64,000 nucleotides of DNA from Bacteroidia bacterium (GTDB lineage: Bacteria; Bacteroidota; Bacteroidia; Flavobacteriales_D; Cryomorphaceae): contig JAUICL010000005.1 of the NCBI GenBank assembly GCA_030427905.1, positions 62,001 through 126,000 of the forward strand. The letters run 5' to 3'. Positions 45,683 through 49,480 of the stretch are shown here, piece after piece. The notes under the pieces were generated by a model, which was not told where the DNA came from, searched no databases, and worked only from the letters and a program-made list of their open reading frames with translations. The number at the start of each line of letters is the position of its first letter. Positions within the stretch are counted from its first letter, which is position 1. Position numbers and translations under genes: made by a program.

Positions 45683-45773
45683 GATCTCTCATCTAAATCA
45701 GGCTTCACCTGAAGGTCCGTTGCAAATATAGAATTCTGGGGAAATGATGTTATCGAAATGGATTTCTCTTAGT

Positions 45774-45815
45774 CGTTGCTACGTGATTAGTTGAAGGTGT
45801 ATGCTGCGACTTCAC
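45774..45815. repeat. Mosaic repeat, degenerate copy D (tail part only)
   Basis: GCTACGTGATTAG then TTGAAGGTGTATGCTGCG then ACTTCACGA corresponds, with substitutions and a small deletion, to the tail module of the larger repeats at 46671-46866 and 48952-49190 (GATTAGCTGAAGGCGTAT, GCGTGGTTTCTT, CGAGCG). It sits directly at the 3' side of the following minus-strand gene. Confidence 0.5.
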
Positions 45816-45827
45816 GAACAACTAACA

Positions 45828-46634
45828 TCAATAGACATACTCAACTCCAGTTTTATAATTCCAGGTATTTCCGCTGTCCAATGGCAGCTCGTGCCACGAC
45901 CCCGTTTGTCGTACAAAGAAAAATGATCTCGGATCATGAGAATCAAAGGTAATGAGCAAGTCTGGAAACTCTTTTCGATTTCTTAAACTATCTGAGTTAT
46001 CGACCCAATCAAACACCACGGCAATCTCTTGATCTCCCACCCAGACTGGTTCGCTGAGTTCCAATTCTAATTGATCCTTTCCATTTAACGATACAAGTTC
46101 TTCTGAGTAAATGAGATTTTCGGGCATTCCAGAATTGTCGATTGAAAAGACGCTAAACCGATATGCCAAGCCTTTCTTATTTCCATTTACATGCGCATAG
46201 ATTTTCGATATCGATGCATTTCCTGGCAGATCCGAAAAACGAACCCCTAAGCCATTCATGATTTTTCCAACCGTTCGACCATTCGTTTTGGATTTATGAA
46301 ATCCAGTTGAAGCATATTTTTTATCGGGTGAAACATCAACCATTTCTAACTGAACTGGGCTGGGATTGAGAAACAACGTGTCTGTATTGTTCAGCTTGTA
46401 AAAAGTAGAATCTGAATACCCTATTCTATGCGTGGAGATGGAATCGCATTCAGCAGAGAAACTCATTTTGCCATGTGAATCTGAAAACAATAGAGTGGAA
46501 CCTGCTTTTACAGAAACGTAAGGAATGGCTTGCCCTGTCTGGCTATCGACAAAAATCATTCGCTTCAGATCTTGACCAAAACATCCGGCAAAAGCGAGCA
46601 GTTGGAGAAATAAAAGAAATGTAATTCTCGTCAT
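45828..46634 (-). CDS. Secreted CarboxypepD_reg-like (TonB-plug-like) domain protein
   Basis: 268 residues from ATG 46634, which gives a clean signal peptide (TRITFLLFLQLLAFAGCFGQ; the Cys could also be a lipobox). Residues 25-100 are a carboxypeptidase-regulatory-like beta sandwich (VDSQTGQAIPYVSVKAGSTL, FSDSHGKMSFS). The rest is beta-rich with no clear motif (GLGVRFSDLPGNASISKIYA). The longer ORF to 46703 reads into repeat A and is not coding. Function unknown; such proteins are often surface or nutrient-receptor accessories in Bacteroidota. Confidence 0.65.
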   Translation of the reverse strand: MTRITFLLFLQLLAFAGCFGQDLKRMIFVDSQTGQAIPYVSVKAGSTLLFSDSHGKMSFSAECDSISTHRIGYSDSTFYKLNNTDTLFLNPSPVQLEMVDVSPDKKYASTGFHKSKTNGRTVGKIMNGLGVRFSDLPGNASISKIYAHVNGNKKGLAYRFSVFSIDNSGMPENLIYSEELVSLNGKDQLELELSEPVWVGDQEIAVVFDWVDNSDSLRNRKEFPDLLITFDSHDPRSFFFVRQTGSWHELPLDSGNTWNYKTGVEYVY

Positions 46635-46670
46635 TGCGTTAAATATAGGAATCAGACTGAGTGAGAGGGC

Positions 46671-46866
46671 TACGCTGCGCCGCATTTGCAATGCTGCGCT
46701 CAATTTAAACCAACACTAAGTAGCAGCTCTTGAAATTCGATCCATTCCGCAGCACTCTTGTGCAAACTGATCTAACTCGTTTCCACGCTGCCGCGCGATT
46801 AGCTGAAGGCGTATTGCGTGGTTTCTTGGGCGAGCGTTTTTTTCCAAAGCCGCTGCGCTGCATTTA
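46671..46866. repeat. Mosaic intergenic repeat, copy A
   Basis: Starts with the head module (CGCTGCGCCGCATTT, GCAATGCTGCGC), an inverted repeat centred near 46687. The short middle follows (ACCAACACTAAGTAG, AATTCGATCCATTCCGC), then the tail (TTGTGCAAACTGA, CGCGATTAGCTGAAGGCG, GTGGTTTCTT, CGAGCGTTTTTTTCCAAA). At 46850 a second head begins (CGCTGCGCTGCATTT) and breaks off, so the units sit in tandem. The head to 46757 is nearly identical to 48227-48314 and the tail to 49100-49190. Most of the 358-base gap 46635-46992 is this element. Confidence 0.85.
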
Positions 46867-46957
46867 CTTCCTACGAGGATTGAAAGTCAGGTTTGTTGCA
46901 TACTGTGAAGAAAAATCGAAATTAGGTTGATAAATTCCAAAAAACTGACTTGTCGTC

Positions 46958-46982
46958 AATTGTACCTTTGATAGGTACAATT
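46958..46982. promoter_or_regulatory. Perfect 10-bp palindrome over the DUF2971 promoter
   Basis: AATTGTACCT (46958-46967), spacer TTGAT, AGGTACAATT (46973-46982). It covers a -7-like TACCTTTG (46963-46970) and ends 10 bases before the ATG at 46993. Either a repressor site on DNA or a hairpin in a very short leader. No regulator gene is adjacent. Confidence 0.6.
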
Positions 46983-46992
46983 ATCTAGATCA

Positions 46993-47874
46993 ATGAAATT
47001 TGTTCAAATTGAATCAGACAAAGTCAAAGGCTTGCCTTTATTTAAAAAGGATCAGAAACTATACAGATACTTAACCCAGGCAAAGTTTCTCGATCTAGTT
47101 CTTCGAAAAGAAATATCCTTTACCCCTCTAAAATATTTCGAAGATCCTTTGGAAGGGTACACCGAAAGGGATTTGTATAATCTACTTCACTTTACTCCCA
47201 ATCAGACAGGAGATAATGACATTGATGAGCGCTTACAGATTATTGCGGACGGTAAAGTCAATAGTGCAATCACCATTGGTAACCTATACAAAAACTTGTG
47301 CCAAGCATCTTGTTGGAACTACGGTCATTTCGAATCCATATTAATGTGGAAGACTTATTGCCCACAGGGCAATGGTGTTCTAATCGAAATTGATGCGAAG
47401 ATTGCATTAGAACATTTTAAAAGTACGATTGAATCGATTACAGACCAACCCGGCTTTAATGGTTATGTATATTATGGGTGTACTGAATACAAGAATGTTC
47501 TACAGAAAGGATATAAGCCTCCAAAACCTGACGAGTATTTTGGGAAAACTAAACCATTAATTGGGTTTGTAAAAGATAAGGCTTACCGTTCCGAAAAGGA
47601 GTTTAGGATGCTCATTGAAAAGAACTACGACTACTTGTATAAAGATTCAAGTTGCAGCTTGTATGATGATTCAATTGTATTTTCGATTGATATGACTGCC
47701 ATCTTGAAGAAGTGCACCTTAAGAGCGAGTCCGTATATGAGCGATCGCGAGATTGAATCTTTGAAGAAACTCTCTGAAGAAAAGCTAGGTCTACAAGTTG
47801 AAAAATCTGAAATAAGACTAGGTGACTTCACTCCTAGGCAAAGAAGAGCGAGTGAAAGTTTTATGAATCAATAG
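46993..47874 (+). CDS. DUF2971-like accessory protein
   Basis: 293 residues, no signal peptide. Matches the DUF2971 pattern: YRYLTQAKFLDLVLRKEISF, LKYFEDPLEG, a conserved core SCWNYGHFESILMWKTYCPQ and GVLIEID, then KDKAYRSEKEFRMLIEK. DUF2971 proteins are found scattered in accessory regions and next to phage-defence genes; their activity is not established. The gene is AT-rich compared with neighbours, has its own palindromic promoter region and is flanked on both sides by the mosaic repeats, so recent acquisition is plausible. Confidence 0.75.
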   Translation: MKFVQIESDKVKGLPLFKKDQKLYRYLTQAKFLDLVLRKEISFTPLKYFEDPLEGYTERDLYNLLHFTPNQTGDNDIDERLQIIADGKVNSAITIGNLYKNLCQASCWNYGHFESILMWKTYCPQGNGVLIEIDAKIALEHFKSTIESITDQPGFNGYVYYGCTEYKNVLQKGYKPPKPDEYFGKTKPLIGFVKDKAYRSEKEFRMLIEKNYDYLYKDSSCSLYDDSIVFSIDMTAILKKCTLRASPYMSDREIESLKKLSEEKLGLQVEKSEIRLGDFTPRQRRASESFMNQ

Positions 47875-47934
47875 TGATGAAAGTGAAAAGAAAACAGCTC
47901 TCCAGCATTCACTTCCTTCGGTCGTGCTATCGAC

Positions 47935-48150
47935 ACGCTGCGCTGCATTTAAAATGCTGCGCCCAATTTATCCGACACATTAAGTCTTAGATTCATAATG
48001 GATCAGGTATTTAGGCTGTTAGTTTTCGTCGTATTCAAAATTGCGGAAAGCGCAGGATTACAAATCCAGCGCAGCCCTGTTGTGCAAACTGAGTTAATTC
48101 GATTCTCCGCTGCGGCGCGATTAGCCGATTGTGTATCGCGTGGTTTCTTA
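47935..48150. repeat. Mosaic intergenic repeat, copy B1 (long form)
   Basis: Head (CGCTGCGCTGCATTTAAAAT, GCTGCGCCC) with inner arms GCATTT/AAATGC. The long middle (GACACATTAAGTCTTAG, GGATCAGGTATTTAGGC) contains a second hairpin GGATT-ACA-AATCC flanked by GCGC, and the tail follows (TTGTGCAAACTGAG, GCGTGGTTTCTT). By my count only about a dozen of roughly 215 bases differ from 48952-49165. Copies B1 and B2 with the joining sequence fill most of the 458-base gap 47875-48332. Short minus-strand ORFs inside it change amino acids at nearly every difference and are not treated as genes. Confidence 0.9.
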
Positions 48151-48226
48151 TAAAGGATCACACCGCGTGTCGCCATAGCTTTAGCGGCGGCGCAAGGGGA
48201 CTCCACGCACTCATGAAAACCACGCT

Positions 48227-48314
48227 CCGCTGCGCTGCATTTGCAATGCTGCGCTCAATTTAAACCAACACTAAGTAGCAGCTCTTGAAATTCGATCCAC
48301 TCCGCAGCAATCTT
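48227..48314. repeat. Mosaic intergenic repeat, copy B2 (head and short middle)
   Basis: CGCTGCGCTGCATTTGCAAT through TCCACTCCGCAGCAATCTT, almost identical to 46673-46757 in copy A. The head hairpin here is GCATT-TGC-AATGC. It breaks off before the tail, at the 3' end of the DUF4468 gene. The joining sequence before it (48192-48225, GACTCCACGCACTCATGAAA) recurs at 49250-49284. Confidence 0.85.
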
Positions 48315-48332
48315 AATGATGCGAAATATGAG

Positions 48333-48869
48333 TTACCAATCACTGTTATCACCCGTGCGCTTCAAATAGTCCGAATAATCTTTGACAATATGGTTCAAGC
48401 TGCTCTTAAATTCTTTCATCATCTCAATAGCCTTTTTCTTCGGAAGACCTGGAGCGCTCATGGTACCAGTTTTAGGACAGTTATCCCCGTCAAATGGCTG
48501 AATTAAAGTAATATCAGCACCACTCGACATCCGAGCTGATTCACAGTAAACATCATATAAGTCGATGCGACATTTTCGCTCCTTCATTCTGAACATGACA
48601 GTATACCGATAAACATATTCATACTCTCCGCCCATAAAAGGAACTATCTCTACCGAGATACCCTTTAACAAAATGACCCCTTCTTCTTTGTCATCATTCT
48701 GAATAACATCTTGAGCTGATTTCCAGGTTTCAGCAATGTAAAGTTTTGTCAAAGAGTAAATCTTCGACTTGCTTAAGCTTACAGAATCTGTTTTTTCCCA
48801 GACGAAATTATGTTGACCATAGCAGAAAGTAAGACCGAATAATAAGAGAAAAGTGAAAAGGAACTTCAT
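48333..48869 (-). CDS. Secreted DUF4468 domain protein
   Basis: 178 residues: signal peptide 1-18 (ending CYGQ) and a DUF4468 domain with the motif KIYSLTKLYIAETWKSAQ, VIQNDDKEEGVILLKG, YTVMFRMKERKCRIDLYDVY. These are common single-domain Bacteroidota proteins with a TBP-like fold and no known function. It lies between repeat copies B2 and C, on the minus strand. Confidence 0.8.
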   Translation of the reverse strand: MKFLFTFLLLFGLTFCYGQHNFVWEKTDSVSLSKSKIYSLTKLYIAETWKSAQDVIQNDDKEEGVILLKGISVEIVPFMGGEYEYVYRYTVMFRMKERKCRIDLYDVYCESARMSSGADITLIQPFDGDNCPKTGTMSAPGLPKKKAIEMMKEFKSSLNHIVKDYSDYLKRTGDNSDW

Positions 48870-48951
48870 AGCGTATTTAATAAGGTGTGGTAAAAGTTAC
48901 GTAACACTCTATAAAATGAGCCTAAATCTTGGCAAAAAACATTGGTGAGCA

Positions 48952-49190
48952 CCGCTGCGCTGCATTTAAAATGCTGCGCCCAATTTATCCGACACATTAA
49001 GTCTTAGATTCATAATGGATCAGGTATTTAGGCTGTTAGTTTTCGTCGAATTCAAAACTGCGCAAAGCGCAGGATTATAAATCCGGCGCAGCCCTGTTGT
49101 GCAAACTGAGTTAATTCGATTCTCCGCTACCGCACGATTAGCTGAAGGCGTATCGCGTGGTTTCTTCGACGAGCGTTTTTTTCCAAACCC
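48952..49190. repeat. Mosaic intergenic repeat, copy C (long form with full tail)
   Basis: Long form with the head, long middle (second hairpin GGATT-ATA-AATCC) and the most complete tail, ending CGAGCGTTTTTTTCCAAACC. The hairpin arms are conserved against copy B1 while the loop and outer base differ (ACA/ATA). The 526-base gap 48870-49395 holds this copy, then a Gly/Cys-rich palindrome-like stretch (GCCGACCGCTGCGCTAGTCGGC near 49220), the shared 34-base module at 49250-49284, and stacked terminators. Confidence 0.9.
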
Positions 49191-49282
49191 GCTTGAAAGC
49201 GAGCTAGCCACAAGGGATTATGCCGACCGCTGCGCTAGTCGGCATGATAGCAAGAGGGACTCCATGCACTCATGAAAACTAC

Positions 49283-49307
49283 GCGCCATGCTGGCGCATG
49301 TTTTTTT
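49283..49307 (+). terminator. Intrinsic terminator, plus strand
   Basis: GCGCCA (49283-49288) TGC TGGCGC (49292-49297), then ATG and a run of seven T (49301-49307). Stem of six G-C-rich pairs with a U-tract. No plus-strand gene is directly upstream, which suggests that a transcript (perhaps from repeat C) enters from the left. Confidence 0.6.
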
Positions 49308-49362
49308 ATTCCCCCAAATCCACTTGAAAGCACGCTTTCGCGGATTTGGGGGAATAAAAAAA
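49301..49362. repeat. 21-bp perfect inverted repeat with nested hairpin
   Basis: Arms 49301-49321 and 49342-49362 are perfect inverse complements (T-run, then ATTCCCCCAAATCC, and its complement). The 20-base interior contains a further stem GAAAGC/GCTTTC. Each outer arm carries a T or A run, so the structure has U-tracts on both strands and overlaps the terminators on either side. Confidence 0.75.
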
Positions 49363-49388
49363 CCGCCCCGATATCTCGGGGCGGTTTT
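49359..49388 (-). terminator. Terminator of tRNA-Ser
   Basis: AAAACCGCCCCGA (49359-49371) pairs with TCGGGGCGGTTTT (49376-49388) around a TATC loop. Read on the minus strand the stem begins eight bases after the tRNA 3' end and runs into a T-rich stretch (TTTTTTTATT), a strong intrinsic terminator. Confidence 0.85.
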
Positions 49389-49395
49389 CATGGTG

Positions 49396-49480
49396 CGGAG
49401 AGGGAGGGATTCGAACCCCCGGTACCTCTCGGTACGCCGGTTTTCAAGACCGGTGCATTCGACCACTCTGCCACCTCTCC
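49396..49480 (-). tRNA. tRNA-Ser(UGA)
   Basis: Class II tRNA of 85 bases on the minus strand. Acceptor stem GGAGAGG/CCTCTCC with G73, D-arm GTGGCAGAGTGGTCGAATGC, anticodon stem-loop CCGGT-CTTGAAA-ACCGG giving anticodon TGA, a long variable arm CGTACCGAGAGGTACCG, and T-arm GGGGGTTCGAATCCCTC. CCA is not encoded. Decodes UCA (and UCG/UCU by wobble). Confidence 0.96.

Follow-up and report, generated by a model that had tools for sequence, protein, structure and literature searches.

Repetitive extragenic palindromic sequences (REPs) are short imperfect hairpins that occur in multiple copies outside genes and carry a conserved unpaired tag at their 5' foot, canonically GTAG. In Escherichia coli, the REP-associated tyrosine transposase (RAYT) cuts single-stranded REPs, and the foot tag is required for this (PMC8266576). 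The main text of PMC6006769 describes a RAYT subclass, 2.6, whose REPs lack GT[AG]G and have atypical structures; the gene is flanked by such hairpins, copies of which lie elsewhere in the genome. The present analysis deals with a cluster of intergenic repeats in a 64,000-nucleotide (nt) stretch, referred to as the window, of a Cryomorphaceae genome (Bacteroidia bacterium, GCA_030427905.1, contig JAUICL010000005.1, positions 62,001 to 126,000). These repeats share the above properties of REPs, with GCT in place of GTAG, and probably represent a family of non-autonomous, REP-derived mobile repeats. The main new point is the GCT mark at the hairpin foot, which is common across Bacteroidota.

The long form of the repeat consists of a head hairpin, an inverted middle hairpin and a different tail hairpin, in the order REP(+), REP(-), REP'(+). 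Head and middle are reverse complements of each other with 85-89% identity in a gap-free alignment, and each forms a 27-nt hairpin in which the outer stem, GCGC, has 4 bp and the inner stem 5 bp, with one mismatch and a loop of 3 nt. A sequence-only reading of this DNA had described head arms GCATT/AATGC within GCGC, exactly as found here, and a second hairpin with conserved GGATT/AATCC arms and changing loop and outer bases. The second hairpin is present within GCGC and its loop and outer bases do vary, but its arms become GAATT/AATTC in three copies, a compensatory change. The tail is a third, distinct hairpin, CCGCGCGAT..ATCGCGTGG, which is also tagged with GCT. Neither this hairpin nor the reversed relation of middle to head figured in the sequence-only reading. 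The GCT stands at the 5' foot, directly or one base away, in all three hairpins: as CGCT-head, as (N)GCT-middle on the other strand (invariant among the aligned middles) and as CGCT-R-tail in nearly all tails examined. It is present in 21 of 22 aligned hairpins from the host genome.

About 90 nt separate the head and middle hairpins in a doublet resembling the REP doublets forming hairpins (REPINs) and bacterial interspersed mosaic elements (BIMEs) of E. coli and Pseudomonas, and the sequence of the long copy reads as a REPIN/BIME plus one extra REP. The likeness extends to the inverted pair of tagged imperfect hairpins, the variable linker, the intergenic and non-coding location, and the mosaic and clustered arrangement; the differences are GCT for GTAG, the third unrelated tagged hairpin conserved downstream, and a copy number of about 30 as against hundreds. 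Compared with subclass 2.6 as presented in the main text of PMC6006769, many copies combine three hairpins instead of having just one, and the GCT foot is common across the subclass. CGTC-tagged REPs, reported from Bacteroidetes too, are likewise short tagged palindromes (PMC3733652), but their tag differs and they flank no RAYT, whereas the present hairpin type does.

A RAYT, the search for which had been proposed along with the sequence-only reading, is indeed present as a single gene in the host genome (C5:152549-153118; L044:3050-3622), flanked by hairpins of the head/middle type. Its product scores 96.8 bits against the NCBIfam profile REP_Tyr_transpos NF047646 (cut-off 80) and 31.1 bits against PF01797 (Y1_Tnp; cut-off 23), and a profile search finds TnpArep 4er8. 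It carries the motifs NHIH (60-63), YIHQNP (145-150) and YSS (164-166), with a HuH-Y distance of 82 amino acids (aa) from 63 to 145. These agree with the features of subclass 2.6 in the main text of PMC6006769 (NH[LIV]H, YIH[QN]NP and YSS, HuH-Y distance about 82 aa), and the protein is assigned by its motifs to that subclass (group 5, Bacteroidetes). The gene sits between CGCTCCGCAGCATTTGCAATGCTGCGG and inverted CCGCAGCATTGCAAATGCAGCGGAGCG. Adjoining it is an element of 172 nt that lacks the RAYT but has the ends of the RAYT element, and an 87% copy lies nearby. Deletion derivatives that thus keep the ends of an autonomous Y1 element (L044:4850-5012 as compared to the RAYT element) recall the miniature inverted-repeat transposable elements of IS200/IS605; here, however, inverted REP hairpins form the ends, and the linkers of the window family are unlike the resident autonomous element.

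The RAYT-flanking hairpins, the window heads and the reversed middles fall into one gap-free 27-nt alignment with 99.3% of cells paired, a pairing somewhat flattered by the exclusion of the long-loop middles and of three others that have one extra base. The outer pair is G-C in nine and C-G in eight distinct sequences, and at one inner position the pair varies between C-G, G-C and A-T; the covariation score of this alignment was reached by none of 500 shuffles. In the middle-and-tail alignment by itself, covariation is barely to modestly above shuffles. It is this sharing of the hairpin type that frames the RAYT which makes a non-autonomous mobile repeat family the most likely identity of the repeats. 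Three other candidate partners were rejected, namely two 225-aa Y1 proteins (C3:204502 and C1:425468) and an IS200-like gene (C3:167786), the flanks of which are without window-type hairpins. The IS200-like gene encodes 153 aa, scores over the NF033573 cut-off and is surrounded by several GACCCTGAAGGGGTCGCAT palindromes (L045:2900-4100; C3:167-168 kb), apparently a second REP-like system in this genome.

The occurrence of the GCT foot elsewhere was elucidated with 79 RAYT relatives gathered from named genomes, Cryomorpha ignava included. At 57 subclass-2.6-type loci whose two flanks form a clear inverted repeat, the hairpin was located on each side, giving 104 hairpins in all. GCT is found at the 5' foot of 82 of these, as compared to 22 of 104 for the mirrored 3'-foot control, and on at least one side at 51 of the 57 loci; none of the 104 hairpins has a GTA foot. 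The inner stems are genome-specific (GCATT, GGATT, GGGC, GCAGT, AAGTC), whereas CCGC and GCGC account for most outer stems. No GCT tag is named in the main text of PMC6006769.

In the host genome of 3.81 Mb, the search with copy C gave 31 matches on nine contigs (best non-self E 5e-92), so that the further copies implied by the sequence-only reading exist. A covariance model of middle and tail gave 28 matches at E<=0.022, and 18 of these reach E<1e-7. The copy number, taken from genome search matches, is far above chance. Nearly all copies are intergenic, most often between convergent gene pairs. Full, middle-and-tail, head-and-middle, short A-type and tail-only forms are seen, the full copies being B1 and C of the window, two at C2:144k, one on C8 and one on C6 with a truncated tail. 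Identity among copies is 71-94%, which indicates that most of them are old. The proposal of a non-autonomous REP-like element that multiplies is thus upheld in the copies throughout the genome and in a RAYT having the same hairpin type, but not in active multiplication. Module exchange is borne out by the head-less and tail-less copies beside the full and tail-only ones, and by a separate loop module in some hairpins. The reading as fragments of a decayed protein-coding gene was rejected, as neither an open frame nor any RAYT coding sequence was recognised in the elements and the sole full RAYT lies elsewhere.

The search of 60 relatives found no full element; REPs are expected to be species-specific, according to the main text of PMC6006769. 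A search of the GTDB genomes with the tail pattern returned no match, and the host genome's own record may be missing there. Tail-only copies at C1:4-24 kb (L047) and at L054 are preceded by GTGTTGACCTACTCCGCTG, and other short palindromic repeats (AGCCCTGTAAGGGCG, CAGCCGGTGAAACCGGGTGCATT and CACAGAG runs) cluster with them. Several hairpins hold a second repeat, ACTTCCTTCGGTCGTGATATCGCTTCACTAAGTT, in the loop. Since it also occurs in two relatives, including Cryomorpha ignava, outside the head/middle hairpin type, this loop module is a separate repeat family. In the form GGTCGTGATATCGCTTCGCTAAGTTG, it is found at C8:149390, C4:112295, C1:146997 and C8:138443; five copies occur in Cryomorpha ignava and one in relative G002, and the reversed control pattern gave none.

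We infer from the sequences the mobilisation of the family in trans by a RAYT, a role of the GCT, and the identity of the acting RAYT. A subclass-2.6 RAYT, a single-strand HuH-Y1 nuclease, would recognise the hairpin together with its GCT foot, and would cut and join the single strand, copying or moving segments into intergenic sites. In the literature, neither single-strand cutting nor a foot-tag requirement was found reported for subclass 2.6. The mosaic would have arisen later, as copies were duplicated locally or truncated and a different repeat became inserted in hairpin loops; most copies would now be old and probably immobile. Several observations weigh against this explanation. The copies are divergent, and about 30 are few for REPs. 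No empty site was seen among the compared genomes, all of which belong to other genera, and the tail hairpin stands beside none of the RAYTs examined. A RAYT with GCGC-stem flanks was not found in the host genome, the ends of the resident one being CCGC-stem hairpins with unrelated linkers.

The outer stem pair splits cleanly, window-type hairpins being all G-C (GCGC) and RAYT-type hairpins all C-G (CCGC). Because of this consistent difference, a variant of the favoured explanation, differing only in which RAYT acted, is a genuine though lesser possibility: the family's RAYT may have been another member of subclass 2.6, with GCGC-stem ends, that has since been lost, the resident RAYT acting on none but its own CCGC-stem REPs. 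The unrelated linkers, the age of the copies and the co-evolution of REPs and RAYTs in pairs, as reported in PMC6006769 and PMC8266576, are consistent with such a loss. However, the genome holds no RAYT remnant except the intact gene and the two distant 225-aa Y1 proteins, and the GCT foot is the same and the inner stem identical in both hairpin sets. Moreover, at the locus of a relative, a Brumimicrobium RAYT (L176), the hairpin of one flank has a GCGC stem and that of the other a CCGC stem, so a single RAYT can have stems of both types.

Within the window, copy A (46665-46855, + strand, as are all features below unless stated) is a short form of head and tail terminating in a T run; its head hairpin, with CGCT at the 5' foot, lies at 46673-46699, and its tail hairpin, CCGCGCGAT..ATTGCGTGG with GCT just before it, at 46791-46821. 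Directly adjoining this tail is a partial head of left arm and loop-module start (46851-46871, 0 mismatches), in keeping with the earlier observation that partial heads follow tails. Copy B1 (47936-48149) is a long form with head at 47936-47962, inverted middle at 48050-48076 (- strand, with its GCT tag) and tail, placed by alignment, at 48113-48143; a loop-module fragment directly precedes its head (47905-47935; seen in C2:109905-109968). Copy B2 (48224-48314; hairpin 48228-48254) is head-only. Copy C, the reference element (48948-49186), is a long form with hairpins at 48953-48979 (head), 49067-49093 (inverted middle, - strand) and 49130-49160 (tail). The heads of A and B2 are 96% identical over 91 nt, and the tails of A and C 87% over 107 nt. 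These four copies are real, as had been claimed, but the additional 'copy D' is just a 30-nt stretch (45773-45802) with 23/30 identity to the tail, scarcely over the window background and without a covariance-model match; it is possibly a decayed tail whose hairpin is lost.

Over 214 nt, B1 (47936-48149) matches C (48953-49166) at 94% identity. The 34-base joining module noted earlier does recur after them, at 48192-48228 and 49250-49287 (89-91% identity to the first copy), and no further significant copy was found in the genome search. The restriction of this module to two copies and the 94% identity of the B1/C pair indicate that about 1 kb was duplicated locally, giving B1-join and C-join, which would account for some of the copies in the window cluster. 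In B1 and C, and in no other copy, the head is followed by a linker with the sequence CTTAGATTCATAATGGATCAGG (47985-48010 and 49002-49027); its faint resemblance to RAYT gene starts (ATG xxx CAG G) may be fortuitous, or the stretch might be left over from an autonomous element since lost. The duplication, together with a uniform copy orientation in 6 of 7 multi-copy clusters, would also suit the view that the family is inert debris spread by recombination and local duplication only. This view is nevertheless unlikely, as the copies lie distant from each other on nine contigs without common flanks, and their hairpins are kept by compensatory changes.

The T run, and likewise the location of 12 of 27 copies between convergent genes, could alternatively indicate that the element is transcribed and kept by selection on its RNA hairpins, as a regulator or terminator. 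The tail ending CGAGCGTTTTTTT, ascribed earlier to the repeats generally, is however confined within the family to A and C, on which ground a terminator was rejected. A known RNA family was rejected as well, since only tRNA reached the gathering score in Rfam. The mixed orientation of the copies relative to genes and the middle-and-tail covariation hardly above shuffles further render an RNA element quite improbable.

The window cluster adjoins the 3' end of tRNA-Ser(TGA) (49396-49480, - strand), its right border. The block of tRNA-Ser, a GWxTD-like gene and a glycosyltransferase-like gene is conserved in relatives, all three occurring in five genomes, and the window genes left of tRNA-Ser were found in none of the relatives where up to 11 kb of their sequence is available. 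Beside the tRNA, GTTTTTTTATTCCCCCAAATCC forms a perfect inverted repeat of 22 nt whose arms are 20 nt apart (49300-49363); it looks like a two-way terminator. Accessory genes alternate with the repeats, a DUF2971 gene (PF11185; 46993-47874) standing between A and B1 and a DUF4468 gene (PF14730; 48333-48869, - strand) between B2 and C. This gene-repeat-gene order, the break of synteny at the tRNA and the single small genes between hairpins around the RAYT would accord with integron-like recombination sites of gene cassettes. Such an array is highly improbable and was rejected, as no integron integrase was found in the genome over the TIGR02249 cut-off, the best matches being ordinary tyrosine recombinases as in 14 of 14 control genomes, and the genes are in mixed orientation. 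The small genes near the RAYT (L044:2300-5100; C5:151.8-154.6 kb) encode 93 aa, a SUKH/SMI1_KNR4 protein of 154 aa and 156 aa, mostly about 10-60 nt from REP hairpins, and a like alternation is seen at C5:518.6-520.1 kb (L159). This might mean that accessory genes are carried along with the hairpins, or simply that the region is permissive.

REP recognition has so far been worked out for GTAG-tagged repeats, mainly in Proteobacteria. It is tentatively suggested, and still rather doubtful, that the GCT foot is the general guide of subclass-2.6 (group 5) Bacteroidota RAYTs, a counterpart of GTAG, and that such a RAYT moves the three-hairpin compound as a whole, in single-stranded form. The compound elements illustrate how different tagged hairpins may be chained into larger units. 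The GCT foot and the covarying stems shared over dozens of species provide a testable recognition rule for the Bacteroidetes group, and a simple means to find its repeats.

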